Both the position numbers and the translations under genes were made by a program. Positions 8,841 through 50,906 of a DNA stretch of 64,000 bases are shown piece by piece. The notes beneath the pieces are model-generated. The model was given only the letters and a program-made list of their open reading frames with translations. It did not search any database and was not told the origin of the DNA. Numbering within the stretch: position 1 is the stretch's first letter; every line of letters starts with the position of its first letter. Source of the stretch: Clostridia bacterium (lineage in GTDB: Bacteria; Bacillota; Peptococcia; DRI-13; UBA5745); assembly GCA_018436095.1 (NCBI GenBank), contig JAHDMJ010000005.1, positions 1-64,000 of the forward strand, written 5' to 3'.

Positions 8841-9900
8841 GTTGATCCGTCTCCTCCTTTTTATGCGGCAAAGAAAAATACTCTGCCAACTCAAAAGGCG
8901 CCAACAACTGATATTTTCCTTCCCGGTCCAAAAGCTCCGGCGTCAGCGCCACCATACATTCTCTTTTTTCCTTACCTTCTGCCTGCAGTACCAAAGGTCC
9001 CCAAACTGGCAGGCTTTTAACGCCGCCGGCAACAGTACGTAAAGACAAGCGCTCCAGCTTCTCCCATCCTATGCTGCTGATGGCCTGGGCCCAGGGTCCC
9101 GGCAAGCCGGCCAGAGACATTACCAGCACAGGCAAGCCGCTGGCGGGGTCTGTTAAATGATGGCCTGTATCCAGAAAAGCAGTAAATTTCCAGCGCTGCG
9201 GCCGGCCGTTCCCTTGACTTTGGAGCGCCGCCCCTTGGCTTGAGTCTGCCTCTTGGCCTGAGTCTGCCTCTTGGCCTGAGTCTGCCCCTTGGCTTGAATC
9301 CGCCTCTTGGCTTGGGCTTGCTTCTTGGCTTGGGACTGCTTCTTGGCTTGGGCTTGCTTCTTGACTTGGGACTGCTTCTTGATCTTGCAGTGATGCCGGC
9401 AGCCAAAGCTCCAGCTTCATCAAAAATGAGCCCATTGCCAGCCGTCGTTTTTGCCGGCGGTCTGCCAGCAAAAGCATTGCCATCACCAGCACGCCTAAAG
9501 GCAGAGCAAAGGCTGAGGGCGCTGTAAAACGTCCCAGGCTATCCGGCAGGCCGGCAGTGGAGGCAAGCAAATACCAGAGGCCAAAGGCGGCTCCCCCTAA
9601 AGAAAAGGAAACAAGATAAAAAGCCCCGCAATACCGCCAAAACCACAGCCAGCTCTCCGGCCGGTAAGCGAGGGCTACCAAAAGGCAGCCGCTAAACAGC
9701 TTCAGCCAGCCGGCAGCCAGGATGCTATAGGGCCACAGAGCCGCCCCCAGGGCATAAAAAGCCCCCAGCACTGCCGCTCCCCCCAGCCAAAACTTTTTAC
9801 CTGGCCGGCCGGTGAGGCGTCCGGCAATCCATAATACCAGCCAATCCATGACCAGATTGGCGGCAAAAACCAAATCGGCATAGACAATAATGGTTGACAT
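8815..9900 (-). CDS. spoIIGA: Pro-sigma-E processing aspartic protease
   Basis: This 361-aa protein has five or so N-terminal membrane helices and a C-terminal aspartic-protease-like domain with the FLDTGHHL active-site motif. It processes pro-sigma-E at the asymmetric septum. The join between membrane and protease halves is enlarged by a Gln/Glu/Ser/Ala/Pro repeat encoded by 18-bp units, not present in the Bacillus protein. The start at 9900 matches the family N-terminus ([16 protein letters not shown]); the open frame continues upstream without homology. A -10 hexamer ends seven bases before this ATG, so the message may be nearly leaderless. Confidence 0.93.
9230..9391. repeat. 18-bp tandem repeats within spoIIGA
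   Basis: About eight full units plus a partial one of 18 bp (variants of GCYTCTTGGCTTGGGCTT on the + strand) run from 9230 to 9391. Each encodes six residues of the QEAxPS or QEADSG type. Units form two sub-families, suggesting successive duplication events. Length is likely to vary between strains. Confidence 0.9.
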
Positions 9901-22029: not shown

Positions 22030-22068
22030 CGACGTCACCCCCTCCCTTTGGCAGAATTTTCCCGCCGA

Positions 22069-22250
22069 CATCCGCGCCCTTAGTATCCTCGGATAGCAGA
22101 ACATCTGCGCCCTAAGCATCTACGGATAGCAGATTGAATCCGCAGGATTGTGTCCGAAGGAACATCTGCGCCCTGAGTATCCTCCGATAGCGGAACATCT
22201 GCGCCCTAAGCATCTACGGATAGCAGATTGAATCCGCAGGATTGAGTTCG
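22069..22250. repeat. Duplicated murD tail and related 34-bp repeats
   Basis: About 51 bp (22100-22150) recur at 22194-22244, an offset of 94 bp. Shorter variants of the same ACATCTGCGCCCT...GGATAGC unit occur near 22069 and 22161. The copy at 22194-22244 contains the real murD stop; the other repeats the last dozen murD codons and stop just downstream. Confidence 0.85.
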
Positions 22251-23699
22251 TAGGACAGCGGCTTTAAAAGCCTCGCCCCGCTTCTCATAATTGCTGAACA
22301 TATCCGTACTGGCGCAGGCCGGCGCCAAAAGCACCAAATCCCCCGGCAGAGCCAGGCCGCAGCAAATATCCACAGCCTCCTCCAAAGTAGCCGCCATACG
22401 GATGCTATCGAAGCCCTGCTCTAATAGGGCTTCTTTCATTTTATCGCCGTCTTTGCCAATTAAGACCACCAGCTTGGCCTTTTCGGCGATTTTTTCGGCT
22501 ACTTCTTTAAAAGGAGCATTCTTCCCGTCGCCGCCGGCGATCAGCAGTATGGGCCGCTCATAAGCATCCAGTGACTTGATGGCGGAATCAGGGTTGGTCG
22601 CTTTGGAATCATTGACATACAGTACACCCTGCCACTCTCCTACCACTTCCATCCTGTGCTCAACGGCTTTAAAACCAGCAGCAGCCTGCCGCAGCACTTC
22701 AAGAGGAACATCCAAGACCAGGCAAGCCGCCAGGGCCGCCAGCAAATTTTCCCGGTTGTGCCGGCCCGGCAAAGCAAATTCTGCCGCCGGCATGACTCTG
22801 GCCCCTTCTGAATCAGCGGCGGCTTTTCCATCCGGATCAGCACCCCTGGTCTGCGCTGGGCTCCCAGGAGAAAACCTTACCCAGCCTTCCTGATCTATCC
22901 ATAAGCCGGAAGCCGGCTTTTCTCTGGTGCTAAACCATAAAATCCGGGGTCCCCGCTGAGTTTGACCTGCCCCGGCGCCGGCAGACTCGGCAATTCTCTT
23001 GTGACCCTCTGCCCGCAAAAGGGGATCGTCATAATTGAGAATCAGCCAATCCTCTGGCCCTTGAAACCGGGCAATCCGCCACTTGGCAGCCTCATAATTG
23101 GCAAAGGATTTATGCCAGTCCAGATGATCCGGGGTCAGGTTAAGAAAAACCGCCACCTTGGGCTTTAAAGACAAGACGCCCTCCAACTGAAAGCTGGAAA
23201 GCTCCAGCACCGCCCAGCTCCGCTCATTCAGCCCGGGAGCCGCCAAAATAAAAGGAGTGCCGATATTGCCGCCGACAAAGGGATCAAAGCCCGCTGCCTT
23301 CAGCATCCGGCCCACCAGGCTGGTCACCGTAGTTTTGCCGTTGCTGCCGGTAATCGCTACAATAGAAGCTCCGCTTACCTGCCAGCCTAATTCAATTTCA
23401 TTGGTGACGGGAATACCTTTGGCCTTAGCCTCAGCTATACCGGCTTGATCCAAAGGCACTCCGGGGCTGGCCACGATCAACTCGGCCTTAAAGCTTAATG
23501 GATCGCAAGGTTTACCCAAATCCAGTATTGCCCCCTGGGCCTCGAGGTTCAGAAGCTCCCGCTTTTTTGCTTCGTCAAAATTCTCAAAAGCTTTTTTATC
23601 GTTGAGGCAAACCAGGGCCTTTTGCTCCAGCAGCCAGCCGGCGGCAGCCAGACCGCTCAGGCCTGCGCCAATCAGATATACCCTTTTTCCTTGCCACAT
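22206..23699 (-). CDS. murD: UDP-N-acetylmuramoyl-L-alanine--D-glutamate ligase
   Basis: This 497-aa Mur ligase adds D-glutamate. It shows the P-loop ITGSNGKTTVTSL, the NLTPDHLDWH motif and YVNDSKATNPDS. It is longer than the usual 450 aa or so because of an Ala/Gly/charged insertion around residues 240-300. The ATG at 23699 has a GAAGGG site. Its C-terminal codons lie in a repeat that is duplicated downstream. Confidence 0.96.
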   Translation of the reverse strand: MWQGKRVYLIGAGLSGLAAAGWLLEQKALVCLNDKKAFENFDEAKKRELLNLEAQGAILDLGKPCDPLSFKAELIVASPGVPLDQAGIAEAKAKGIPVTNEIELGWQVSGASIVAITGSNGKTTVTSLVGRMLKAAGFDPFVGGNIGTPFILAAPGLNERSWAVLELSSFQLEGVLSLKPKVAVFLNLTPDHLDWHKSFANYEAAKWRIARFQGPEDWLILNYDDPLLRAEGHKRIAESAGAGAGQTQRGPRILWFSTREKPASGLWIDQEGWVRFSPGSPAQTRGADPDGKAAADSEGARVMPAAEFALPGRHNRENLLAALAACLVLDVPLEVLRQAAAGFKAVEHRMEVVGEWQGVLYVNDSKATNPDSAIKSLDAYERPILLIAGGDGKNAPFKEVAEKIAEKAKLVVLIGKDGDKMKEALLEQGFDSIRMAATLEEAVDICCGLALPGDLVLLAPACASTDMFSNYEKRGEAFKAAVLRTQSCGFNLLSVDA

Positions 23700-33889: not shown

Positions 33890-34055
33890 GCGGCTGAAAT
33901 AAATCAGGATACAGCATTCTTTAGTTTTATGAGCTATTATATTTTCTGAAAGGTTAGAAGATACAGTCTAATTTCTTTCTTAATAGAGGTAATCAATTAC
34001 ACTTGTGCCGTATTGAGCAGCAATATAAGATTACGTTAGATAGGAATTGATAGAC

Positions 34056-36143
34056 ATGAAAAAAAGAGCCCTTGATATGCTTAGATACTTCTTCCAAATC
34101 AATAGGTCTCATTACATAAGTCTTGACAGTTTTGCAAGAGATTTTGGTGTGTCTGAAAAAACCATAAGAAATGATATCGATGATATAAATTATTTTTTCA
34201 GAGATATTTATCCTAATAATATTATTTCCATTAATAAAGGCCGTTTTGCCGGTTTAGAAGAGGGCGCAGATTTGGAAGGGGTCTCCTGGGCATTATACAA
34301 TATGGCGGCTCACCAATATTCCATGACGGCTCAGGAGCGCATTTCCTACTCTTTAATAAAGATTTTATCTTCTGATAAACCTTTTAAAATAGCTGATTTT
34401 ATGGTTGAGACAAAAGTCAGCCGCGCCACAATTTGCACGGATTTAATCTCCATTAAGCTGCAATTGGAGCGTTACGGCCTTAAACACCATTCTGATAACC
34501 TGGGGTTGCATATCGAAGCCATTGAATATAAAAAAAGGCTGGTAATCTGCGAATTGCTCGAAAAGCATTACGACATTTTTGATGAATTCAGCGTTTATCC
34601 CAGATTATTGTACTCTGCCGTTTTTAAAACCGTGGATATTAAAAGCGTAGAAGCTTTTTTGGAAGAATTTCTGGAAGAAGAGTACTTATTAATAACAAAA
34701 GGATCCATGTATTGTTTAGCCTTGTATCTCTATGTAGCTCTGAACAGGATAGCCCAGGGCTGCAAGCTGTTTTGGGCAAATAAGGGTAATATTGCAAAAG
34801 CCGAAGACGAACTTTTCTTGGGTATTGAGCAAAAAATCCAAGCCAGCCTTGGCATAAAGCTTGATGAAGAAGAAATGGCCGGTATCAGATTTTATCTCAA
34901 AAAAAAGGGCATAACTTGGTCAACTGGACATAGCAATACCTGCTCTAAACAGCATTTTTACCTGAGCGAGTTTATCCGGGCTATTTCTAAAAAGCTTGGG
35001 GTCAACTTTAATACGGATTATACACTTTTTAATAATCTCTTGGGTCTCCTTCGCAAGAAGATGGATATGCAGGTTACAGCTATATCGGATATCTACCCTT
35101 TCAAAGGCCAAATGTGCGAAAGATATCCGGAAATTATTGACGCTGTCTATGAATGCAAGCATCTTGTGGAGAATTATCTTTCTCTTAAATTTGACGAAAA
35201 CGAGATCTTGTTTATCGCCACCCACCTCAGCAATCATATGGAGATTCATTTGAAAAAGCTGACAACTAACAAGGTATATGTAGCCTGCCCCAATAATGTG
35301 GCCACCGGTCAGCTGCTGGCAACCTTCTTGGAAAGAGAGTTCAATATACGGGTAAAAGGCGTTTTTTCAAAAAATGATTTTTATAAAAAAAGAATTGAAG
35401 ATATCGATTTTATCGTTTCAACCTATGATTTGAATATTGACAACATACCGGTGGCGGTGGTGAGCCCTTTTTTAGACGCCGGTGATAAAAGGAAAATTCG
35501 CCAAATGCTTGTTCAGCGGGGCTCTGCGGTCAAAGAAAATGCGAAGGCTAACGGTGTGGATATTACGGATTCTATCCATTATGTACAATCCAATTTATAC
35601 AACGACGCCGATAAAATCGCCTTTCAGGGCGAAATCAGCGAGACCGTCAAGAAATACCTGCAAAAAATCGGAGAAACCCCAAAAACCAGCTACAAAATTA
35701 GCGATCAGCTGGATAGGGATTTGTTGAGCATCATAAAGGATGATATTGGCTGGAGAGAAGCTATAGAGCGAGGCTGCAATTTATTAAAAGACACCGATTA
35801 TGTTGATTCTGCTTATTACCGCATGATTATCAAAAAAGTTGAGGAGCATGGGCCCTACTTTGTCATCAAAAACGGCATTGCCTTATCCCACGCCCCTCCC
35901 GGCACCTCTGTAAAAAAACTGGGTTTAAGTCTGGTAGTTTTTCCCCTAGGCGTTTGTTTTGGCCATGCGGAAAACGATCCGGTATTTTTACTGTTTACCT
36001 TTTGCACAAATCAGGAAGGCGGCTACTTAGAACTCTTGCAAAACCTGATGGATTTGACCAATCAAGAGGCCTTAATCCCTAAACTCATATCCGCTGAAGA
36101 TAAATCAAGGCTTTTGGAAGCCATCAGGGAGCTTGAGGAATGA
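34056..36143 (+). CDS. PRD-domain transcriptional regulator with PTS EIIA domain
   Basis: This 695-aa regulator of the LicR/MtlR/ManR class has an N-terminal helix-turn-helix (DFGVSEKTIRNDIDDINYFF), a second HTH-like part (about 110-145) and two PRD regions. An EIIB-like segment begins near NKVYVACPN and a C-terminal EIIA domain has the phosphorylatable His in ALSHAPPG. PTS-dependent phosphorylation normally tunes activity in this class. The ATG at 34056 is preferred over TTG 34047. The gene looks AT-richer than the rest of the window. It heads the + strand catabolic operon and is its likely activator. Confidence 0.9.
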   Translation: MKKRALDMLRYFFQINRSHYISLDSFARDFGVSEKTIRNDIDDINYFFRDIYPNNIISINKGRFAGLEEGADLEGVSWALYNMAAHQYSMTAQERISYSLIKILSSDKPFKIADFMVETKVSRATICTDLISIKLQLERYGLKHHSDNLGLHIEAIEYKKRLVICELLEKHYDIFDEFSVYPRLLYSAVFKTVDIKSVEAFLEEFLEEEYLLITKGSMYCLALYLYVALNRIAQGCKLFWANKGNIAKAEDELFLGIEQKIQASLGIKLDEEEMAGIRFYLKKKGITWSTGHSNTCSKQHFYLSEFIRAISKKLGVNFNTDYTLFNNLLGLLRKKMDMQVTAISDIYPFKGQMCERYPEIIDAVYECKHLVENYLSLKFDENEILFIATHLSNHMEIHLKKLTTNKVYVACPNNVATGQLLATFLEREFNIRVKGVFSKNDFYKKRIEDIDFIVSTYDLNIDNIPVAVVSPFLDAGDKRKIRQMLVQRGSAVKENAKANGVDITDSIHYVQSNLYNDADKIAFQGEISETVKKYLQKIGETPKTSYKISDQLDRDLLSIIKDDIGWREAIERGCNLLKDTDYVDSAYYRMIIKKVEEHGPYFVIKNGIALSHAPPGTSVKKLGLSLVVFPLGVCFGHAENDPVFLLFTFCTNQEGGYLELLQNLMDLTNQEALIPKLISAEDKSRLLEAIRELEE

Positions 36144-36172
36144 TTTAAGGATGAACGGGAAAGGAGCATCAA

Positions 36173-37873
36173 ATGTTACAGGGCAGCTGTGTCAGCAGAG
36201 GAATTGCTATAGGACAGGCCAAGGTTATTAAAAAAGCTTTACGCAAGGCCTCTCATGAAGAAAAGCAAAATATTGACGGGGCTGCGGAAGCCAAAAAAGC
36301 AAAAGCAGCTTTTTCCGAGGCAGCCGGCGAAATAGAGGCTTTAATTAAGCTGGCGGCAGATAAAAAAGCAGACGATGTGAAACATATCATGGAAGCCCAT
36401 AAGGCAATCCTTGAGGATCCTGTTTTAATTGAAATGGTTTTAAGCCGGATCCAAAAAGATGCTCTTTCTGCACCGGCAGCCATTGCCGCCTCTTTTGACT
36501 CATTTATTTCCATGTTGCTTGAGATAGACGACCCGGTATTTCAGCAAAGAGTCTTTGATTTAAAAGATCTTCAAGACCGCTTGCTGGCTATTTTGAACGG
36601 CGGGGAAGGCCGGCAGGAGCTAACGGGTTCCCTCATTTTGGTTGCCGATGAAATCAGCCCATCGGCTTTAATCAGCTTTGATAATCGCAAAGTGTTGGCC
36701 TTAGTAACGGAATTGGACGGAGCCACCTCCCATGTGGCCGTAATTGCCAATTCCCTGGGCATACCCACAATAATGGGCATACCGAATATACACAATAAAG
36801 TAAATGAAGGCGATCTGGTAATTGTTGACGCCATTAATAACAAAGTACTGATCAAACCCGACGAAGGTTTACAAAAAGAGTATGCTCAAAAAAGGGAAGA
36901 TTACCAAAAATATTTGCAAGGTTTAGAAAAGGATAAAAATATAGCGGCTTGTACTTTGTGCGGCGCCCGCCAAATAGAAATCCATGCCAATATTGCCTTT
37001 CAAAAAGAGACGGCAAGTGTGATTGACCAAGGAGGCGAAGGAGTTGGTCTGCTGCGCTCCGAGTTCCTTTTTATGGATAGGGAAGATTGGCCGGCGGAAG
37101 AGGAGCAGTTTGATTTTTATAAAGCCGTTTTATCGGATTTAGCGCCCCTGCCGGTAACGGTGCGGACCCTGGATGTGGGCGGCGATAAGGACATTCCCTA
37201 TATTAATATACCGAAAGAAGAAAATCCTTTTTTAGGGCTGCGGGCTATTCGTATTAGCCTGAAATATGAAGCCCAGTTCAAAATCCAATTACGGGCTTTG
37301 CTGAGAGCTTCTCATTTCGGTAACTTGCGTATTATGTTCCCTATGATTGCAGCCCTTGAGGAATTGCTTCAGGCCAAAAGGGTTTTCGACTTAGCTAAAC
37401 AGGAATTAAGAGCCGAAGGGCTGGCTTATGATCCCGATATCAAGGTTGGCATCATGGTAGAAACCCCTGCCGCCGCTATTTTATCCGATGTTTTGGCTAA
37501 ATATGTTGATTTCTTTAGCATTGGCACCAATGATTTAATGCAATACACCCTGGCCGCCGATCGAAACAATAATTCGGTAAAATATTTACGGGACTATTTT
37601 GAGCCTTCAATTTTACGGCTAATTGATCTGGTGGTAAGAAGCGCCGCTAAATCCGGTATCCCCGTGGGCATGTGCGGAGAAATGGCTTCCGACAAAATAG
37701 CGGCTTCTCTTTTAGTGGGGTTGGGCCTGGATGAGCTATCCATGTCTCCCCGTAAAATATCCGAATTAAAAAAAGCCGTTACCCAATGCCGTTTTAACGA
37801 ATGCGTAGCTTTATCCCAAAAGGCCCTGCAGCTTGAAACGGCGGAGCAAGTGGCTAATTTATTAGGGAGGTAA
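36173..37873 (+). CDS. ptsI: PTS Enzyme I
   Basis: This 566-aa phosphoenolpyruvate-protein phosphotransferase has the phospho-His motif GATSHVAVIA (H187), the PEP-binding LLRSEFLFMDR, GTNDLMQYTLAADR and the C-terminal cysteine in MCGEMA. It is full length. It sits inside a substrate-specific operon rather than beside a general ptsH, so this system carries its own phosphoryl supply. Confidence 0.95.
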   Translation: MLQGSCVSRGIAIGQAKVIKKALRKASHEEKQNIDGAAEAKKAKAAFSEAAGEIEALIKLAADKKADDVKHIMEAHKAILEDPVLIEMVLSRIQKDALSAPAAIAASFDSFISMLLEIDDPVFQQRVFDLKDLQDRLLAILNGGEGRQELTGSLILVADEISPSALISFDNRKVLALVTELDGATSHVAVIANSLGIPTIMGIPNIHNKVNEGDLVIVDAINNKVLIKPDEGLQKEYAQKREDYQKYLQGLEKDKNIAACTLCGARQIEIHANIAFQKETASVIDQGGEGVGLLRSEFLFMDREDWPAEEEQFDFYKAVLSDLAPLPVTVRTLDVGGDKDIPYINIPKEENPFLGLRAIRISLKYEAQFKIQLRALLRASHFGNLRIMFPMIAALEELLQAKRVFDLAKQELRAEGLAYDPDIKVGIMVETPAAAILSDVLAKYVDFFSIGTNDLMQYTLAADRNNNSVKYLRDYFEPSILRLIDLVVRSAAKSGIPVGMCGEMASDKIAASLLVGLGLDELSMSPRKISELKKAVTQCRFNECVALSQKALQLETAEQVANLLGR

Positions 37874-37877
37874 AAAT

Positions 37878-38336
37878 ATGTTGGACGCTTTAAATTTTTC
37901 TGAGGCCAACTCCTTTGTCCATCTGAATTTCCCCTCGGCAGAAAACCTCCTCCATTTTCTTGCGGATCATCTTAACAATGCAAAATTCGTAACGGAGGAT
38001 TTTTATCCGGCTTTGCTGGCCCGGGAAAAGCAGTATCCCACCGGCCTTGAAACCCCTATTCCCATAAGCCTTCCCCATGTAGGCGAGGGGATACGGCAGC
38101 CCTTTCTTGCTATCGCCACATTAGAGGAGCCTGTGCTCTTTAAAGATATGGGCGGTTCAAACAGGGATATACCCGTTCGGATTGTCATCTTATTCGGCAA
38201 CAACAGCAGCGATGCTCAAGCGGGAATCCTGCAAAAGCTAAGCGGCATTATTCAGGCTGAAGAAAAGCTAAAGGAATTGCTGGAGAGCCCTTCGGCAACG
38301 GCCCTTTATGAATCTTTTAAAAATATGATTGGTTAA
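37878..38336 (+). CDS. PTS EIIA, galactitol/fructose-mannitol type
   Basis: This 152-aa EIIA domain protein has active-site H67 in SLPHVGEG. The fold and length fit the GatA/PtsN superfamily. It would accept phosphate from HPr and pass it to the EIIB encoded three genes on. It starts 4 bp after ptsI behind GGGAGG. Confidence 0.88.
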   Translation: MLDALNFSEANSFVHLNFPSAENLLHFLADHLNNAKFVTEDFYPALLAREKQYPTGLETPIPISLPHVGEGIRQPFLAIATLEEPVLFKDMGGSNRDIPVRIVILFGNNSSDAQAGILQKLSGIIQAEEKLKELLESPSATALYESFKNMIG

Positions 38337-38362
38337 GCAAAACAATATATAGGGGGATGCGG

Positions 38363-38629
38363 ATGCTAACAAAAGAATTTACCGTCACCAATGCAGTAGG
38401 TTTACATGCCAGGCCGGCTTCGGTTTTAACACAATTAGCCGGCAAGTATGAATCGGAAATTTTTATTAAAAAGGCCAATGCTCAGGTGAATGTTAAGAGT
38501 ATTCTGTCATTGCTATCTTTAGGAGCAAGAAAGGGGGATAAAATTGTAATTGAAGTACAGGGAAGCGACGAGGAAGCAGCCTTAGAGGCGGTAATCGGGT
38601 ATCTTGCAAGCTTAGGTGACAACGATTGA
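38363..38629 (+). CDS. ptsH: HPr phosphocarrier protein
   Basis: This 88-aa HPr has the catalytic H15 in GLHARPAS and the regulatory S46 in KSIL. The ATG at 38363 is chosen because AGGGGG then has 7-base spacing and both residues fall on canonical numbers. S46 implies it could also be a target of HPr kinase if one exists in the genome. Confidence 0.94.
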   Translation: MLTKEFTVTNAVGLHARPASVLTQLAGKYESEIFIKKANAQVNVKSILSLLSLGARKGDKIVIEVQGSDEEAALEAVIGYLASLGDND

Positions 38630-38661
38630 TTTAACTGTAGTAAATGAAGGGGGCGAAATCT

Positions 38662-39933
38662 ATGGAACTATTAGCCAGTATTTTAAACACCTTTACATCT
38701 TTGGGAGCTACAGTAGTATTGCCTTTTATTATGTTCTTTCTGGGCCTGATTTTCAGGCTGGGCTTTTCCAAGTCTTTTAAATCCGCCCTGACTATCGGTA
38801 TCGGTTTTATCGGCATCAATTTAATCATCGGCTATTTTTGGGGGGCCGTTTCCCCTGTAGCCATAGCCTTTAGTGAAATGACCGGAAACAGGCTTACTAT
38901 GCTGGATATCGGCTGGCCCGCTGCCGCCGCCGTTGCCTGGGGCTCTATTGCCGCCCCCATTATTGTAATAGGCGCCCTGGTTGTTAACTTTATCATGATT
39001 AAACTGAAATGGACGAAAACCCTCAATGTGGACATCTGGAATTTTTGGGGTCCCATGCTATATGGCCAAATCGTTATTGTCCATACTAAAAGCCTGATCG
39101 CCGGTATCCTTACAGCCATTATCATCTTGGTCATTCTCAACCTTTTAGCCGACCGGACCCAAAAACACATGTATGAATACTACCAAGTACCCGGCGTAAC
39201 CATACCCCACTTGTTTTCTCAATCCGCAGGCATAGTGGCTTATCCGGTCAACTACTTGTTGGATCGGATACCGGGAATAAACAGCATCAATTGGACTCCT
39301 CAAAATATTAAACAAAAACTTGGCGTGTTTGGCGAGCCCATGAGCATTGGATTAATACTGGGTGCCGCAATGGCTATTATTGCGGGCTTTGATTATCGCG
39401 GAATTCTTACCACCAGCTTGGGGCTGGCCGGTTCAATGGTACTCCTGCCCAAAATGGTGGCTATATTGATGGAAGGTTTGGTGCCTTTTGCTAACGGTGT
39501 TTCCGGCTACATGACCGAGAAACTGGACGGCCATGAAGTCTACGTCGGAATGGATAGCGCCATTATACTGGGGGATCCCGCCAACCTGGTTACAGCAGTG
39601 CTTTTAATTCCCATTACTATTTTAATCGCTTTAATTCTTCCCGGAAATAAGGCTTTGCCTATGGCCGATTTGCCCGCTCTGGTGTATATGACCGTCATTG
39701 GCGTGGGTATAACCAAAGGCAACGTATTTCGCAGCGTAATCATCGGCATCCCCATCGTTATTGCCCTGCTGTGGACGGCTACTTACTTGGGACCGGAAAT
39801 CACCACCTTAGCCGGCGAAGTTGGCTTTGACGTGCCTGAAGGAGCTGTAACCATAACCAGTATTGCAACAGGCAGCAGTTGGATTGGCGTGGCTGTGCAA
39901 AAAATCATGGATATTATCGGCGGCATTTTTTGA
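38662..39933 (+). CDS. PTS EIIC, galactitol type
   Basis: This 423-aa membrane permease has about ten hydrophobic segments and the conserved region around YVGMDSAIILGDPANLVTA. It belongs to the GatC family (EIIC for galactitol and related polyols or sugars). ATG 38662 with GAAGGGGG is preferred over 38644. It provides transport with concomitant phosphorylation. The actual substrate is not readable from sequence. Confidence 0.9.
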   Translation: MELLASILNTFTSLGATVVLPFIMFFLGLIFRLGFSKSFKSALTIGIGFIGINLIIGYFWGAVSPVAIAFSEMTGNRLTMLDIGWPAAAAVAWGSIAAPIIVIGALVVNFIMIKLKWTKTLNVDIWNFWGPMLYGQIVIVHTKSLIAGILTAIIILVILNLLADRTQKHMYEYYQVPGVTIPHLFSQSAGIVAYPVNYLLDRIPGINSINWTPQNIKQKLGVFGEPMSIGLILGAAMAIIAGFDYRGILTTSLGLAGSMVLLPKMVAILMEGLVPFANGVSGYMTEKLDGHEVYVGMDSAIILGDPANLVTAVLLIPITILIALILPGNKALPMADLPALVYMTVIGVGITKGNVFRSVIIGIPIVIALLWTATYLGPEITTLAGEVGFDVPEGAVTITSIATGSSWIGVAVQKIMDIIGGIF

Positions 39934-39953
39934 GAGGGAAAGGATTGGCTTAT

Positions 39954-40256
39954 ATGAAAAAAATAAAAATTATTTGCGCCTGCGGCAGCTCCATTGCCAC
40001 TTCTACCATCATGGCCTCCAATGTTAACGACTTGCTGGAAGGCAAAGGCTATAGCGCCGATATTAAAAAAACCACTTATTCCAGCTTGGACGAAGACATT
40101 AAATCCTTTCAGCCCGATCTGGTTTTAACCAGCACAAATATCACGGTCAATACCGGCGTACCGGTATTGCTGGGCCTTCCTTATCTGACCGGCGTGGGTA
40201 AAAAAGACTTGGAAAAAAAGATACTGGATATTGTAGAAGGTATAAAAAATGATTAA
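39954..40256 (+). CDS. PTS EIIB, galactitol type
   Basis: This 100-aa EIIB has the phosphocysteine loop ICACGSSIATS (C10). It follows EIIC by 20 bp and overlaps the transketolase gene by 8 bp. It is the usual partner of GatC-type permeases. Confidence 0.91.
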   Translation: MKKIKIICACGSSIATSTIMASNVNDLLEGKGYSADIKKTTYSSLDEDIKSFQPDLVLTSTNITVNTGVPVLLGLPYLTGVGKKDLEKKILDIVEGIKND

Positions 40257-41157
40257 GGAAATCCGGGAGCCCTCTGTTGCCCAATACGCCAATGAGATAC
40301 GGCTTAATGCCCTCAGCATAATATTGGATAAGGGCGGCGGTTACCTGACCCAGGCCAGTTCCGCGGCAGAAATCCTTGCCACCCTTTTTGCCAGGGTACT
40401 GAAGCTATCCCTGGAAAAAGATCGCCTCCCCCTGGAATGCCCCATAGATTCCTATGTTCCCTTTGGTGGCTCTGCCTATTATGGGGAAAAAAGCAGCTTG
40501 GGGGACCGGCTCTTCATTTCTCCCGGTCACTATGCTATGGCCGTTTATTGTACCCTGGCGGCAGTAGGGATACTCCCGCCGGAAGCTCTTGAAGCTTTTG
40601 GCGCCGACGGTTCTTGTCTGGAAGCCATCGGCAATGATTTTTGTCCCGGCTTTGAAACAAACGCCGGCACCCTGGGCCAGACCATCAGCATAGCTGCGGG
40701 AGTAGCCTTAAGCCGCAAAAATCGGCTGGATTCGGGCAAAGTCTATGTTTTCATTTCCGACGGGGAGCTGCAATCCGGTCAAACCTGGGAGGCTATTCAG
40801 GCAGCGGTCCATTACCGATTGGATAATCTGGTTATCGTAATCGACAATAACTTCCATCAGGTGGAAGGCCTCACCAAAGACGTGATGAATGTTGAAGATA
40901 TCCTGGATAGATTGAGGGCCTTTGGGGCCGACGCCGTCAGAATTGACGGCCATAATCCGGAGGATCTGGCCAAAGCAATGCTGCGCCAAACCCCGGGAAA
41001 GCCTAACGCGGTTATTTGCGATACGGATCCAACCTTTAATATGGATTTTCTCAAGGAATATGAACCCTTTCTTCACTATTTCAGGATCAACGACGCAAAC
41101 AGGGATTCGGTGGAGAAGCAGCGCCACTTGTTAAGCGGGGTTAAAAGCTATGATTAA
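40249..41157 (+). CDS. Transketolase, N-terminal subunit
   Basis: This 302-aa protein matches the thiamine-diphosphate-binding half of transketolase, with SPGH in the early loop and the TPP/Mg motif GELQSGQTWEA through IDNN. Split transketolases of about 300 + 310 aa are common in Clostridia and in sugar operons. It would work as a heterodimer with the next product, moving two-carbon units between ketose and aldose phosphates. Confidence 0.9.
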   Translation: MIKEIREPSVAQYANEIRLNALSIILDKGGGYLTQASSAAEILATLFARVLKLSLEKDRLPLECPIDSYVPFGGSAYYGEKSSLGDRLFISPGHYAMAVYCTLAAVGILPPEALEAFGADGSCLEAIGNDFCPGFETNAGTLGQTISIAAGVALSRKNRLDSGKVYVFISDGELQSGQTWEAIQAAVHYRLDNLVIVIDNNFHQVEGLTKDVMNVEDILDRLRAFGADAVRIDGHNPEDLAKAMLRQTPGKPNAVICDTDPTFNMDFLKEYEPFLHYFRINDANRDSVEKQRHLLSGVKSYD

Positions 41158-42163
41158 AGAAACCGGGGTTCATGCAAAGAATCTGATCAAATGGGCCCAA
41201 AATAAGGATAATGTAGTGGTTTTAACCGCAGATTTGGGCAGTTCCTGTGAAGTCAAGGAGTTTTCCAGGGTCTTCCCTTCAAGATACTACTCCATGGGCG
41301 TTGCGGAGCAAAATATGGTTAGCTGGGCCGCCGGCATGGCCAGGGAAGGTTATTATCCCATGCTCCACACCTTTTCTGTATTCATGTACAGAAGGGCCCT
41401 GGATCAGATCGAAATGTCCGTGGCTTACAGCAATCTGCCCGTGGCCTTCGTTGGCTTTCTGCCGGGCTTAATGACGCCGGGGGGGCCCTCCCATCAGGCA
41501 ACCAATGACCTTGCGGTTTTACGCTCTATCCCCAACCTCCGCATATACGAAACCGGCGATGCAACGGATGTGGAAACGGTTTTGGAGGAGGCTTACCGTC
41601 AAAAAGGCCCCGTATATATCAGGATGCTGCGGGGAGAAATACCGCGTTTGTTCAGGGATAGTCCTGTCAATAAATATCAGCCCTGCCGCCTTCTCCGGGA
41701 GGGTGAAGGTATCCTCATATTCTCCAGCGGCATCATGACCGGCAGGATCGGCCAGGCCGTTGAGCAATTGGCAGAAAGCGGCCTCAGCATAAGGCATGTC
41801 CATATTTCCCGCATTAAACCTTTAGAAACAGAAACCATTTTGCGTTATATCGCCGGCATAAAATACGGCGTCCTTACGGTGGAAAACCATTCCATAATCG
41901 GCGGCCTGGGCTCGGCTATTGCGGAAATCATGTCCGAGACGGGGCCCAGCCTCCCATTAAAAAGAATAGGCATCCCGGATGCCTATTCAAGAGGGGGTTC
42001 CTTTGAGTACCAGTGCGGTTTAAACAATCTCACCGCCGATCAAGTGGTGACCGCCGCCAAAAATCTTACGGGCAGCAACTGCAGAGAGGAGGATTTTCAA
42101 GGGACAGCCGCTGCTACCGAATACTTTGATCAGAAAATGAAACAGGTGGTGATAAAAAAATGA
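41150..42163 (+). CDS. Transketolase, C-terminal subunit
   Basis: This 337-aa protein is the pyrimidine-binding and C-terminal part of split transketolase. GVAEQNMVSWAAGMA holds the catalytic glutamate that activates TPP. It overlaps the N-terminal subunit gene by 8 bp and the next gene by 4 bp (ATGA), so subunit stoichiometry is probably translationally coupled. Confidence 0.9.
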   Translation: MIKETGVHAKNLIKWAQNKDNVVVLTADLGSSCEVKEFSRVFPSRYYSMGVAEQNMVSWAAGMAREGYYPMLHTFSVFMYRRALDQIEMSVAYSNLPVAFVGFLPGLMTPGGPSHQATNDLAVLRSIPNLRIYETGDATDVETVLEEAYRQKGPVYIRMLRGEIPRLFRDSPVNKYQPCRLLREGEGILIFSSGIMTGRIGQAVEQLAESGLSIRHVHISRIKPLETETILRYIAGIKYGVLTVENHSIIGGLGSAIAEIMSETGPSLPLKRIGIPDAYSRGGSFEYQCGLNNLTADQVVTAAKNLTGSNCREEDFQGTAAATEYFDQKMKQVVIKK

Positions 42164-43194
42164 AGGCAGCAGTTTTATACGGCCCCGGTGATTTACGCAT
42201 CGAAGAAGTAGCCAAGCCTCAGGTTGATCCGGAATCGGTTTTAATCAAGATCGACTCTGTGGGCTTATGCGGCTCCGATATTCGTACCATTGGCTTTGGC
42301 CATCATCGCATCAAATACCCCCAGATCCTGGGCCATGAAATCACCGGCATGGTTGTGGAAACCGGCGGCGCTGTAGAGGGCTATTCCCTGGGGGAAAGGG
42401 TTTATGTTTCTCCCATCGTACCTTGCCTCAAATGCAGGGCATGCCAAAAAAACTGGTATAGCCAATGCGAGAATTTTACTGTGCCGGGTACCACTATTCC
42501 CGGCGGCTTTGCCGAGTATATGCTTTTGCCAAAGAGTATATTGGAACGGGGACAGGTAATAAAAATTCCCGAGGGTATGACTTATGAACAGGCCGTTATG
42601 ACGGAGCCTCTTTCCTCGGTATATGCGGCCCAGGAAAACGCAGATGTTAAGCTGGGCAATATCGTGGTGGTCATCGGCTTAGGGCCCATAGGCTGTATGC
42701 ATATTCAAACCGCCAAACTCAGGGGAGCGGTGAAGGTTATCGCCATCGAGGTCTTAGACTCCCGGCTTGAGCTGGCCAAAAGCTTCGGCGCCGATGAGGT
42801 GATAAACTCCAATAATGCGGATCCGGTTAGTGAGGTCAAAAGATTGACTGATGGCTGGGGAGCCGACGTCATCATTTCCGCCAACCCCTCAACCCTGGCC
42901 CAAAGGCAGGCTATCGAAATGGCGGCCAAAAGAGGCAAGGTTGTCTTTTTTGGCGGAGTTAAAAAAGGCGCCCTTACCGAAATCGACTCCAATATCGTTC
43001 ATTATAATCAGCTAATGATTATAGGCCATTACGGCTATGATCATATCGACAACTTTAATTCCTTCCAGCTCATTGCCACGAAAAAGTTTGAAGTTGACCA
43101 ATATATAACTCACGTATTGCCCCTTGAGGAAATCCATAAGGGAGTTGAACTGACCCAAAGGGGAGAAGCCATCAAGGTTATTCTAAAGCCTTAA
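42160..43194 (+). CDS. Zinc-dependent alcohol (polyol-phosphate) dehydrogenase
   Basis: This 344-aa MDR-family dehydrogenase has catalytic zinc ligands in GLCGSD and GHEITG and structural zinc cysteines (CLKCRACQKNWYSQC). The NAD(P) motif is GLGPIG. It resembles galactitol-1-phosphate 5-dehydrogenase and sorbitol dehydrogenase. In this operon it probably oxidises the PTS product to a ketose phosphate. Cofactor and substrate are inferred. Confidence 0.88.
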   Translation: MKAAVLYGPGDLRIEEVAKPQVDPESVLIKIDSVGLCGSDIRTIGFGHHRIKYPQILGHEITGMVVETGGAVEGYSLGERVYVSPIVPCLKCRACQKNWYSQCENFTVPGTTIPGGFAEYMLLPKSILERGQVIKIPEGMTYEQAVMTEPLSSVYAAQENADVKLGNIVVVIGLGPIGCMHIQTAKLRGAVKVIAIEVLDSRLELAKSFGADEVINSNNADPVSEVKRLTDGWGADVIISANPSTLAQRQAIEMAAKRGKVVFFGGVKKGALTEIDSNIVHYNQLMIIGHYGYDHIDNFNSFQLIATKKFEVDQYITHVLPLEEIHKGVELTQRGEAIKVILKP

Positions 43195-43258
43195 AAGCAA
43201 TCGAATGCCTTAAAAGCCGTCAAATTCATTAAACAACGAATATTGAGGAGGAGAATTT

Positions 43259-44563
43259 ATGAGAGACAGCAGTTATGGTTTACCGGATGTAGCAGTGGCA
43301 AACGGTGATATTATTGCAACCTATTACATCGAAAGCGCCACGGAAGAGATCATGCGTTATGTAGTCGCCTTAATTGAGGAGCAGACCACCAGCACCTGGA
43401 CTCCCGTTCCCGGCGAGCATTCCCGGGTCCGGGACAACCACACCGGCAAGGTAATTGCCGTCTACGGACTGCCGGATTACGAATACGTCTTGCCCAAGGA
43501 TGAGACCAGGAAATACGTGATTCAGCTGGCTTACCCTGCCATCAACTTCGGACCGGAAATCCCCATGATGCTCTCTACCTTAATCGGCAACATTGCTCAG
43601 GTTCCCGTGCTGAAGCTTCTGGATATTTCTTTCCCGGAAGAATGGCTTAAAGGCTTTAATGGACCTAAGTTTGGCATTGAAGGCCTGAGGAAACTCATGA
43701 ACGTAAAGGATCGCCCCTTTGTCAATAACATGATTAAACCAGATTTGGGCTGGACACCTGAGGAAGGGGCTCAAATGGCTTATGAGGTGGCCCTGGGCGG
43801 CGTCGATCTGATTAAAGACGACGAGCTGCTGCCGGCCAATCCCCCTTATTGCCCTTTGGCAAAGAGGGTTAAGCTGATTACGGAAAGCGTAAAACGGGCT
43901 AACGAGCAAACGGGAGAGAAAACCCTCTACGTGCCCAATATCACTTCCGATGTAGCCCATCTCAAGGAAAATGCTTTGCGGGCCCTTGACGCCGGCGCCG
44001 AGGCCTTGATGATCAACTTCTATACTGTTGGTTTTTCCGCCGCCAAGATGATTGCCGATGATCCGGAAATCCAGGTGCCCATTATGGCCCATATCGACTT
44101 TTCCGGCGCTATTTTCGGCTCTCCCTATCAGGGCATAAGCTCCCCTCTTCTTGTAGGCAAACTGGCCCGCCTGGCCGGCGCCGACATGCAGATTGTGACC
44201 AGCCCTTACGGCAAATTCCCCGTTGTCCGCTACAAATGCCAGCAGCAGGTAATCAATGCCCGGCAGAAGTTCTTCCATATTAAATCCTTGCTGCCTATGC
44301 TTTCCGGCGGTATGACCCAAGGCGCCGTGCCGAAAACCATGAAGGAACTGGGTTACGACATTTGCTTGGCTGCCGGCGGCGCTATCCACGGTCATCCTAT
44401 GGGAGCCACGGCAGGAGGCAAATCCATGCGGCAGGCTATTGACGCTACCATGAAGAATATTGATTTAGAGGAATACGCCAAAGATCATCCGGAACTGGCC
44501 GCCGTTGTCAATACCTGGGGCAAATCCGACGCTACTGAATATTTCGATCTGAAAATAAAATAA
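43259..44563 (+). CDS. RuBisCO-like protein (RLP)
   Basis: This 434-aa protein has the RuBisCO large-subunit fold. K160 (IKPD) matches the first active-site lysine, and K186, D188 and E189 (GGVDLIKDDE) match the carbamylated lysine and Mg ligands. H279, K319 (YGKF, loop 6) and the phosphate-binding AAGGAIHGHPMGATAGG follow. The second lysine of the KPK motif is D162, the residue after H279 is isoleucine, and the serine of SGG is alanine, so CO2 fixation on ribulose bisphosphate is unlikely. Known RLPs act as enolases, isomerases, or decarboxylases of 3-oxo-isoapionate 4-phosphate. The setting with PTS, transketolase and dehydrogenase genes suggests action on a phosphorylated keto sugar or sugar acid. 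A GAGGAGG site precedes the ATG. Confidence 0.92.
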   Translation: MRDSSYGLPDVAVANGDIIATYYIESATEEIMRYVVALIEEQTTSTWTPVPGEHSRVRDNHTGKVIAVYGLPDYEYVLPKDETRKYVIQLAYPAINFGPEIPMMLSTLIGNIAQVPVLKLLDISFPEEWLKGFNGPKFGIEGLRKLMNVKDRPFVNNMIKPDLGWTPEEGAQMAYEVALGGVDLIKDDELLPANPPYCPLAKRVKLITESVKRANEQTGEKTLYVPNITSDVAHLKENALRALDAGAEALMINFYTVGFSAAKMIADDPEIQVPIMAHIDFSGAIFGSPYQGISSPLLVGKLARLAGADMQIVTSPYGKFPVVRYKCQQQVINARQKFFHIKSLLPMLSGGMTQGAVPKTMKELGYDICLAAGGAIHGHPMGATAGGKSMRQAIDATMKNIDLEEYAKDHPELAAVVNTWGKSDATEYFDLKIK

Positions 44564-44598
44564 GGCTTTAATTCCTTACTGTTCATGTCAGCACATTT

Positions 44599-44651
44599 CA
44601 GGGTATCGGAAGCCCAAAGGATACGCAGGGTTCCGATATCCTGATATTTTT
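44599..44651 (+). terminator. Terminator or attenuator between RLP and HAD genes
   Basis: A 13-bp stem (44599-44611 with 44631-44643, one G-U pair) and a 19-nt loop are followed by ATATTTTT. It probably lowers expression of the last gene relative to the operon. Confidence 0.75.
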
Positions 44652-44662
44652 AGGAGACGACG

Positions 44663-45532
44663 ATGATTAAAATTATTGCGATAGATATCGATGGAACTTT
44701 GCTTGAGTACGGTGAAACGAGTATTCAACCCGCAGTGCTGAATGCTATTCATTATGCGAAAAATAAAGGTACAACCATCATTCTTGCCTCAGGCAGGCAC
44801 TTTGAATCCGTCGCCCGGCTTCTAAAGGTATTGCAAATTGATGGCTATGCAATTACCATCAACGGCTCTGTTCTCTATGATGTAAAAAACCGGCATATTG
44901 TATATACAGAATACCTGGAAGAGGCTATTGTTGATTATTTATTAAGCGAATGCCGGGAGTTAAAGCTGGCCCATGTGCTAATGTCGGAAACAAAGGCTTA
45001 TACAGACATAAGCTTCAGAGACGACCGGGTGGTGGCTGTTTTAGAAAATGAAGGCACCGTCAATTTCTATTCCGATCATGCCCCTCCTGTTGCTTCAGCA
45101 AAAATAAACAAGCTTTCCATCATGTCAAATGATCTCGATTTATTAAGTACAATTAGGGATAACGTTAACCAGCGGTTTCCGGAGGCAACTCATGGAGATT
45201 TGGCAATGAAAGATACTCTGGAAATTTACTCGAAGCAAGCCAGCAAGGCGTCGGCTTTAGAATATCTAAGCAGGATATTGGATATAGAAAGCAGTGAAAT
45301 TGCGGCCATCGGCGATTCGGAAAACGACATAAAAATGATTCAAATGGCGGGCTGCGGCATTGTTATGGCAAATGCCAGCGTTAAAGTCAAGAAGTATGCC
45401 GGATATACTACAAAATCTGTAGCAGAAGCCGGCGTTGCCCATGCCATAATGAACATCATTCCTGCTTATGAAAAAAGCAGACTGCCCCTCTCTGGGAAGA
45501 GAACAAAAAATGGGGATCCGCTCTATAGCTAG
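44663..45532 (+). CDS. HAD-superfamily phosphatase (Cof type, IIB)
   Basis: This 289-aa hydrolase has motif I DIDGTLLEYG with both aspartates, motif II SGRH, a type IIB cap and motif IV GDSENDIKMI. These enzymes dephosphorylate sugar phosphates or flavin nucleotides. Being last in the PTS operon, it may dephosphorylate a pathway intermediate or relieve sugar-phosphate stress. AGGAGA precedes the ATG. Confidence 0.88.
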   Translation: MIKIIAIDIDGTLLEYGETSIQPAVLNAIHYAKNKGTTIILASGRHFESVARLLKVLQIDGYAITINGSVLYDVKNRHIVYTEYLEEAIVDYLLSECRELKLAHVLMSETKAYTDISFRDDRVVAVLENEGTVNFYSDHAPPVASAKINKLSIMSNDLDLLSTIRDNVNQRFPEATHGDLAMKDTLEIYSKQASKASALEYLSRILDIESSEIAAIGDSENDIKMIQMAGCGIVMANASVKVKKYAGYTTKSVAEAGVAHAIMNIIPAYEKSRLPLSGKRTKNGDPLYS

Positions 45533-50736: not shown

Positions 50737-50906
50737 AACCGCTGCAAATCATCGCAAACTGTCGTGAACCATCGCGAATCGTCGTGAACTGTCGTGAACC
50801 ATCGCGAATCATCGCAAACTGTCGTGAACCATCGCGAACCGTCGTGAACCATCGCAAACCGCTGCAAGCGGCTGCAAGCCGTTGCGAATCGTCGCGAGCC
50901 ATCGCA
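50737..50906. repeat. 10-bp tandem repeat, 17 units
   Basis: Seventeen consecutive 10-bp units fit AAYYRTCGYR (for example AACCATCGCG, AACTGTCGTG, AATCATCGCA). Higher-order periods of 30 and 60 bp are visible: AACTGTCGTG followed by AACCATCGCG starts at 50757, 50787 and 50817. The last units before the terminator are the most degenerate. The array begins directly beyond the hydrogenase-like operon terminator. Confidence 0.92.

Follow-up and report, generated by a model that had tools for sequence, protein, structure and literature searches.

RuBisCO-like proteins (RLPs) have been assigned few functions so far, namely those of MtnW (YkrW), a 2,3-diketo-5-methylthiopentyl-1-phosphate enolase, of the 5-methylthioribulose-1-phosphate (MTRu-1P) isomerase, and of OiaX/OiaT, OiaX being a 3-oxo-isoapionate-4-phosphate decarboxylase that is followed by TPI- and RpiB-type isomerases of L-erythrulose-1-phosphate and D-erythrulose-4-phosphate. 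The R. rubrum RLP isomerises MTRu-1P to 1-methylthioxylulose-5-phosphate (MTXu-5P) (PMC4958253; 'Deep-Ykr'), a ketose of transketolase-type geometry without a C1 hydroxyl. Here, we describe a real and conserved association of phosphotransferase system (PTS) genes with an RLP branch to which no function has been assigned, starting from the window (the whole stretch of 64,000 nucleotides of clostridial DNA that was analysed). A PTS-fed RLP had already been suggested by the first-pass annotation of this DNA, and that interpretation is supported by the analyses below.

Gene content of the RLP operon

The open reading frame at 43259-44563 (+ strand, ATG start, 434 aa) encodes a full-length homologue of the RuBisCO large subunit, in which Pfam detected both large-chain domains (RuBisCO_large, 1.5e-56; N-domain, 3.3e-8). 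The best structural matches to its AlphaFold2 model (pLDDT 91) were all MtnW, RLP, or RuBisCO structures (Z 42-50), with MtnW ranking first (Z 48-50) ahead of other RLPs and form III enzymes, a predicted resemblance that indicates the fold and not the function. Domains and modelled fold bear out the first-pass identification of this gene as an RLP, and the protein combines the fold, carbamylation lysine, Mg ligands, and changed RuBisCO residues that characterise the RLP superfamily (form IV).

This gene is the tenth of 11 same-strand genes in a putative operon (34047-45532, + strand). The operon opens with a PRD/EIIA regulator of the LicR/MtlR type carrying a C-terminal PTS_EIIA_2 domain (34047-36143; Pfam HTH_11 6e-10, PRD 2.9e-11, PTS_EIIA_2 8e-22), followed by PTS enzyme I (EI, 36173-37873; TIGR01417 579 bits, cut-off 341.7); no second EI was found in this genome. 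Next come a fructose/galactitol-type EIIA (PTS_EIIA_2, 37878-38336; Pfam 1.9e-24), HPr (38357-38629; Pfam 2.6e-29, TIGR01003 over cut-off) with GLHARPAS and Ser46-type KSI motifs, a permease of the galactitol (GatC) family of EIIC (38644-39933; Pfam EIIC-GAT 5.8e-73), and a GatB-like EIIB (39954-40256; Pfam PTS_IIB 2.7e-8). A split transketolase follows, with an N subunit (TK-N, 40249-41157; Pfam Transketolase_N 1.7e-19) and a C subunit (TK-C, 41150-42163; Pfam 4.8e-31 and 9.3e-17), and then a Zn-dependent medium-chain dehydrogenase resembling threonine 3-dehydrogenase, scyllo-inosose 3-dehydrogenase, and GatD (42160-43194; ADH_N 7e-27, ADH_zinc_N 1e-26) that reached no NCBIfam equivalog cut-off. 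Downstream of the RLP, a HAD-IIB (Cof-type) phosphatase (44663-45532; TIGR00099 171 bits, cut-off 137) is possibly the last gene of the operon; homologues of it also occur in two other RLP loci (L017 and L052). Neighbouring genes overlap by 8 nt (EIIB/TK-N and TK-N/TK-C) or 4 nt (TK-C/dehydrogenase), those upstream of the dehydrogenase otherwise lie 4-30 nt apart, and the two last gaps measure 64 nt (dehydrogenase-RLP) and 99 nt (RLP-HAD). The EIIA, EIIC, EIIB, split transketolase, and dehydrogenase genes that the first-pass annotation had placed ahead of the RLP on one strand, with overlaps or short gaps, are therefore all confirmed. Its description of the PTS operon as complete also holds, although it had listed only EIIA, EIIC, and EIIB and mentioned neither the EI and HPr genes nor the regulator and phosphatase at the two ends. 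Sequence motifs include the phosphorylatable histidines of EI, HPr, and EIIA (PH motif) and the cysteine of EIIB (CACGSS), and the operon is predicted to encode an entire, functional PTS phosphorelay.

Like the galactitol PTS operon (gatABC, gatD), this operon combines GAT-family EIIA, EIIB, and EIIC with a Zn-dehydrogenase; unlike it, it carries its own EI and HPr, a transketolase, and an RLP, and lacks a tagatose-bisphosphate aldolase. EIIC, EIIB, and the dehydrogenase all scored under the galactitol cut-offs (TIGR00827 349 bits against 542 for EIIC; NF007643 47.9 against 95 for EIIB), and EIIC thus resembles GatC without qualifying as a galactitol EIIC under its model, belonging to the same Pfam family and a different subfamily. 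A galactitol pathway was rejected because of these missed cut-offs and the lack of the aldolase. Elsewhere in the window, tandem repeat arrays were observed at 1656-1888, 9230-9381, 22068-22255 (two copies of 94 bases, 92%), and 50750-50861 (10/20/30-base repeats), and the window contained no Rfam matches.

Active site and placement of the RLP

RLP residues were numbered by alignment to form I and III RuBisCO. Kept residues (window = RuBisCO) are E41=E60, T46=T65, W47=W66, N111=N123, K160=K175, K186=K201, D188=D203, E189=E204, H278=H294, and K319=K334, together with the glycine motifs S349-G350-G351 = S379-G380-G381 and G373-G374 = G403-G404, while K177 (D162), R295 (I279), H298 (S282), and H327 (I312) are lost. 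The catalytic and CO2-contact set of RuBisCO forms I-III (K175/K201/D203/E204/H294/K334) is accordingly present, and the set for the P2 phosphate of RuBP (K177/R295/H327) is absent. Since the second-phosphate residues are replaced and the P1 residues kept, the P1 phosphate site is presumably retained and the P2 site lost, taking site assignments from established RuBisCO structure, and this predicted P1-only pattern suits a substrate with one phosphate beside its carbonyl. Across 81 RuBisCO-family rows, the residues at 60 and 334 always change together (an acid with Lys/Arg in 60 rows, Gly with a non-basic residue in 21). The K177 column holds Asp or Cys across the clade of the window RLP, and the N123 column holds Asn in the whole clade and Lys in every MtnW row. 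The carbamylation lysine and Mg ligands named by the first-pass annotation (K186, D188, E189) align with K201/D203/E204, and its reading of the second KPK lysine as D162 was also right (aligned with K177); its statement that SGG is replaced by AGG came from a misalignment, since SGG is kept as S349-G350-G351 and the AGG at 372-374 belongs to the G403-G404 motif.

In a 75-row IQ-TREE phylogeny (supports as bootstrap/SH-aLRT), the window RLP grouped at 100/100 with L017 of Eubacteriaceae UBA12179 (73% identical) and L044 of that family (60%). It lies outside three other clades: MtnW (100/100), OiaX with the four-carbon-kinase RLPs (100/99), and the 12-row R. rubrum/R. palustris type (100/99). 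The last of these contains no R. rubrum RLP in our tree, where R. palustris 3qfw and L105, a plasmid-borne cupin-linked RLP, stand for it. Placement within the MtnW or OiaX/OiaT clades, one of two outcomes that the first-pass annotation had named as speaking against its interpretation, was thus not observed. NCBIfam models agree, with scores below cut-off for MtnW (NF007095 358.8 against 409; TIGR03332 306.5 against 513.6) and OiaX (193.9 bits against 700). Membership in MtnW was rejected on these cut-offs, the separate clade, the replacement of catalytic Lys98 (G. kaustophilus) by Asn111, and the lack of mtn genes at 34-46 kb of the window (the MtnW rows L098-L102 have a conserved neighbour set); membership in OiaX was rejected on the missed cut-off and the separate clade. 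By sequence, we therefore place the window RLP in a branch outside the characterised RLPs and without assigned function. This clade keeps a near-whole RuBisCO catalytic set apart from the second phosphate site, occupies a position between MtnW and the isomerases, and extends into Thorarchaeota, and its reaction therefore bears on the diversification of RuBisCO chemistry.

PTS genes and transketolases around related RLPs

The genomes compared are mostly metagenome assemblies, with open reading frames outside the window called by a custom script. PTS genes surround nine further RLP loci (L044-L050, L052, and L064) from about four lineages, five of which (L044, L045, L047, L048, and L049) have all five of EI, HPr, EIIA, EIIB, and EIIC around the RLP, or nearly so, while L046 lies at a contig end. 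In the RLP tree, L045-L049 and L064 sit near the window group, joined at 89/89, L052 forms a long branch of unsure position, and the PTS-linked rows do not make up one strongly supported clade. Gene orders also differ among these operons, which consequently do not represent one inherited block. An EI domain search in eight genomes found nine EI genes, all of them inside RLP operons (a same-genus genome has two of each), the other matches being proteins of PPDK size. PTS_EIIC-family permeases were absent from five of the seven PTS-RLP genomes searched, with one in each of the other two. We estimate the probability that an EI lies near an RLP by chance at <1% for each genome (20 kb out of 2.5 Mb). 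Because homologues in other genomes are accompanied by the same families of genes and all nine EIs fall in RLP operons, the operon association is far beyond chance, and we regard the linkage of RLP and PTS as almost certain. The second outcome that the first-pass annotation had named as speaking against it, no conserved association with PTS genes in relatives, was therefore not observed either. That EI is found exclusively in RLP operons across these eight genomes suggests that the PTS is kept there largely for the RLP route.

The remaining gene content is more variable. The oxidising enzyme is a Zn-dehydrogenase in the window, L046, L047, L049, L050, and L052, and a 2-hydroxyacid dehydrogenase in L044, L045, and L048; most loci encode a LevR-type activator, and five (L045-L049) a class II aldolase/epimerase-family protein. 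These proteins scored 198 and 192 bits with ribulose-5-phosphate 4-epimerase and fuculose-phosphate aldolase models against 82 with MtnB, which disfavours their identification as MtnB. The exception to the linkage is L017, in which the RLP adjoins HADs and a dehydrogenase 65% identical to that of the window, with EI on another contig of a PTS-rich genome. A contig scan returned close relatives only. The first-pass annotation had expected a separate clade always next to a GatC-type PTS and a split transketolase: the PTS does recur and the transketolase subfamily is RLP-linked, but 'always' does not hold, since among PTS-RLP loci a split transketolase adjoins the RLP in the window's genome only, and the others have an aldolase-family gene, a PDH-like complex, or neither. 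The complex belongs to L052, a second and divergent PTS-RLP operon in a genome (G023) of the window's genus, where a PDH/acetoin-dehydrogenase-like thiamine-enzyme complex takes the place of transketolase; its E2 (218 aa) matched the catalytic domain only, with no lipoyl domain.

RLPs of the wider clade also occur in non-PTS contexts, including PEP_hydrolase/UPF0261 operons and Thorarchaeota. Operons of a sister subclade from Clostridia (L053-L066) encode, besides the RLP, a pair of PEP_hydrolase-like TIM proteins, the Tm-1-like UPF0261, and a ComB-type phosphatase, frequently together with a GlpP antiterminator. Thorarchaeotal RLPs (L011-L016, L018) are 45-48% identical to the window RLP and neighbour formate-THF ligase, FolD, formiminotransferase, an old-yellow-enzyme homologue, and a DJ-1-family protein. 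In five further loci (L067, L068, L096, L097, L103), the RLP is accompanied by RpiB and an extra TPI paralogue (at least two TPIs in 5/5 genomes), an arrangement resembling the tetrulose-phosphate isomerase pair that acts after OiaX.

Searching 398 genomes of the phylum with the window TK-C yielded five matches at 330-343 bits (48-55% identity), the next scoring 223 (39%), and in all five genomes the transketolase adjoins a short RLP of the R. rubrum/R. palustris type. Both window subunits fall, as long branches, in the clade of RLP-adjacent transketolases (100/100 each). This subfamily carries GFLPGxxT-PGGxxHQ (GFLPGLMT-PGGPSHQ in the window) instead of xTHAGxTVGEDGxxHQ; its lost THAG/GEDG residues and GHPD histidine correspond to E. 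coli TktA H461, D469, and H100. TktA H100 contacts the C1 hydroxyl of the donor. The same subfamily occurs on rhizobial/Devosiaceae plasmids in operons encoding an ABC importer, mtnK, mtnA, TK-N, TK-C, and a short RLP (L173, L174, L175, L177, L179), in Agrobacterium (L083; mtnA-TK-TK-RLP within the stretch examined), and without an adjacent RLP on Marinovum (L176) and Paracoccus (L178) plasmids, next to an FGGY kinase, a threonine-DH-like enzyme, a class II aldolase, and a molybdopterin oxidoreductase. A Vibrio plasmid locus (ABC, SDR, TK-N, TK-C, RLP, FGGY kinase) follows the same logic. Rhizobia apparently use methylthioribose through an RLP and a transketolase, which would act on MTXu-5P. 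The notion that transketolases beside any RuBisCO-family gene form one subfamily was rejected, since a form III-type locus in the window's phylum (L094, G356), whose RuBisCO has all form III/I catalytic residues, adjoins an ordinary split transketolase. We found no open-literature paper joining an RLP with PTS and transketolase, with methylthioribose and transketolase, or with apionate, and nothing relevant on RLPs with galactitol or phosphotransferase.

A candidate pathway and known systems

Our tentative reading of the operon is a self-contained pathway for a sugar or polyol supplied by the PTS, in which the RLP is a ketose-1-phosphate isomerase whose product is cleaved by transketolase; we infer the RLP reaction, the order of steps, and the substrate class as follows. 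EI, HPr, EIIA, EIIB, and EIIC would carry the substrate into the cell and place a phosphate on a terminal hydroxyl, as expected from family function and the relay residues, and the Zn-dehydrogenase, judging from its family, would oxidise the product to a ketose monophosphate (ketose-1-phosphate). Using Lys160 as base and a Mg centre at carbamylated Lys186, the RLP would bind the single phosphate in the RuBisCO P1 site, enolise the ketose-1-phosphate via an enediolate on Mg2+/carbamate, and shift its carbonyl in the manner of the R. rubrum-type enzyme with MTRu-1P, giving a ketose phosphorylated at the opposite end. Such a carbonyl shift is suggested by the shared transketolase subfamily and the P1-site pattern. 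This ketose, which probably carries something other than an ordinary hydroxyl at C1, may then be cleaved by the RLP-linked transketolase to glyceraldehyde-3-phosphate and a two-carbon unit. R. rubrum-type RLPs belong to another clade, with T65-W66 deleted and E204 changed to His, so that equal chemistry does not follow. Other observations also count against this reading: among PTS-RLP loci this transketolase is confined to the window, the same subfamily occurs without an adjacent RLP, the 2-hydroxyacid dehydrogenase of L044, L045, and L048 would fit an acid substrate, and retention of E60-K334 would equally be expected of an enzyme that handles carboxylates.

The last two points lead to the main rival, an OiaX-like decarboxylation, which we consider rather unlikely. 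Here, the PTS would bring in a sugar acid (or a polyol oxidised later), the dehydrogenase would form a 3-oxo acid phosphate, the RLP would remove CO2, and the resulting ketose phosphate would be cleaved by transketolase or a class II aldolase. E60-K334, in RuBisCO a contact of the CO2-derived carboxylate, is kept in the window as in RuBisCO and OiaX (D60, K334), and the two positions co-vary perfectly; however, E60 is likewise retained, together with Arg334, in R. rubrum-type isomerases, and the pair therefore does not prove CO2 chemistry. Similarly, four sister loci (L067, L068, L096, L103) that pair the RLP with the extra TPI paralogue and RpiB recall the OiaX route, but their RLPs lack E60 and K334. 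The nearest relatives of the window dehydrogenase, TDH and IolM, oxidise a 3-hydroxyl, which speaks for this route, while the position of the RLP outside the OiaX clade, its score far below the model cut-off, and the Gly of OiaX at N123 all weigh against it. OiaX and its relatives share the E/D60-K334 pair, the Mg site, and catabolic sugar operons with the window, but come with four-carbon acid sugar kinases and ABC/TRAP importers, and the window has no such kinase.

An MtnW-like enolisation, in which an MtnB-like class II aldolase-family dehydratase would yield a 2,3-diketo-1-phosphate to be enolised by the RLP and dephosphorylated by the HAD, appears improbable. MtnW provides the closest solved structures (PDB 2zvi, 2oek, 3fk4; ~35% identity) and the best models, being the nearest characterised relative by score, and has a carbamylated Lys-Asp-Glu Mg site and a mono-phosphate site like those of the window RLP; aldolase-family proteins are encoded in L045-L049 and a HAD phosphatase in the window. 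Yet the window lacks an aldolase-family gene, those of the other loci fit epimerase and aldolase models over MtnB, and no mtn genes accompany the PTS context. Moreover, the MtnW base (K98, N123 column) is Asn clade-wide, and MtnW, in its separate clade, has Gly, Ser, and S-A-G where the window keeps E60, K334, and SGG. It is very unlikely that the RLP is a passenger, present by chance or for an unrelated salvage in an ordinary polyol pathway of PTS, dehydrogenase, and transketolase. The L017 arrangement and the several non-PTS contexts in the wider clade would fit this, but linkage at ten loci from about four RLP lineages, exclusive EI placement, the RLP-dehydrogenase pairing retained even in L017, and a transketolase type common to other RLP loci argue otherwise. 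Least probable, and hardly credible to us, is a true carboxylase adding CO2 to a monophosphorylated ketose: every RuBisCO residue for carbamylation, enolisation, and CO2 contact is kept, but K177 is lost, a catabolic operon for a PTS sugar offers no reason for CO2 fixation, and we know of no characterised RLP with carboxylase activity.

If ketose-1-phosphate isomerisation followed by transketolase cleavage is correct, the operon could represent an undescribed bacterial route of sugar degradation, with the sole PTS phosphorelay of the organism devoted to an RLP isomerase whose product goes to a specialised transketolase. As this transketolase elsewhere works behind R. rubrum-type RLPs, two RLP branches may possibly be joined to the same thiamine enzyme. 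The link between PTS, RLP, and thiamine enzyme offers a concrete, assayable pathway, and the shared transketolase subfamily a testable lead on methylthioribose use by rhizobia. Among known systems, form III RuBisCO (T. kodakarensis, P. horikoshii) shares nearly all carbamylation, enolisation, and P1 residues with the window RLP (~37% identity over the C-terminal domain), but the latter lacks K177/R295/H327, and no RuBP supply genes were seen in its operon. The split transketolase of Carboxydothermus hydrogenoformans (PDB 6yaj, 6yak) has the same two-gene architecture and thiamine-diphosphate fold but belongs to another subfamily, the window enzyme being without the GHPD His, THAG His, and GEDG Asp. 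R. rubrum/R. palustris-type RLPs (PDB 3qfw) resemble the window RLP in the acid at 60, Asn at 123, a basic residue at 334 followed by Phe, and, in most, Ile at 327; both would start from a ketose-1-phosphate, and the rhizobial ones are accompanied by the same transketolase subfamily as the window RLP. They differ in clade, in sequence (~28-31% identical), and in supply, which comes from ABC-MtnK-MtnA or nucleoside salvage and not from a PTS. On the isomerase reading, the PTS and dehydrogenase of the window would replace MtnK and MtnA of the rhizobial methylthioribose operons.
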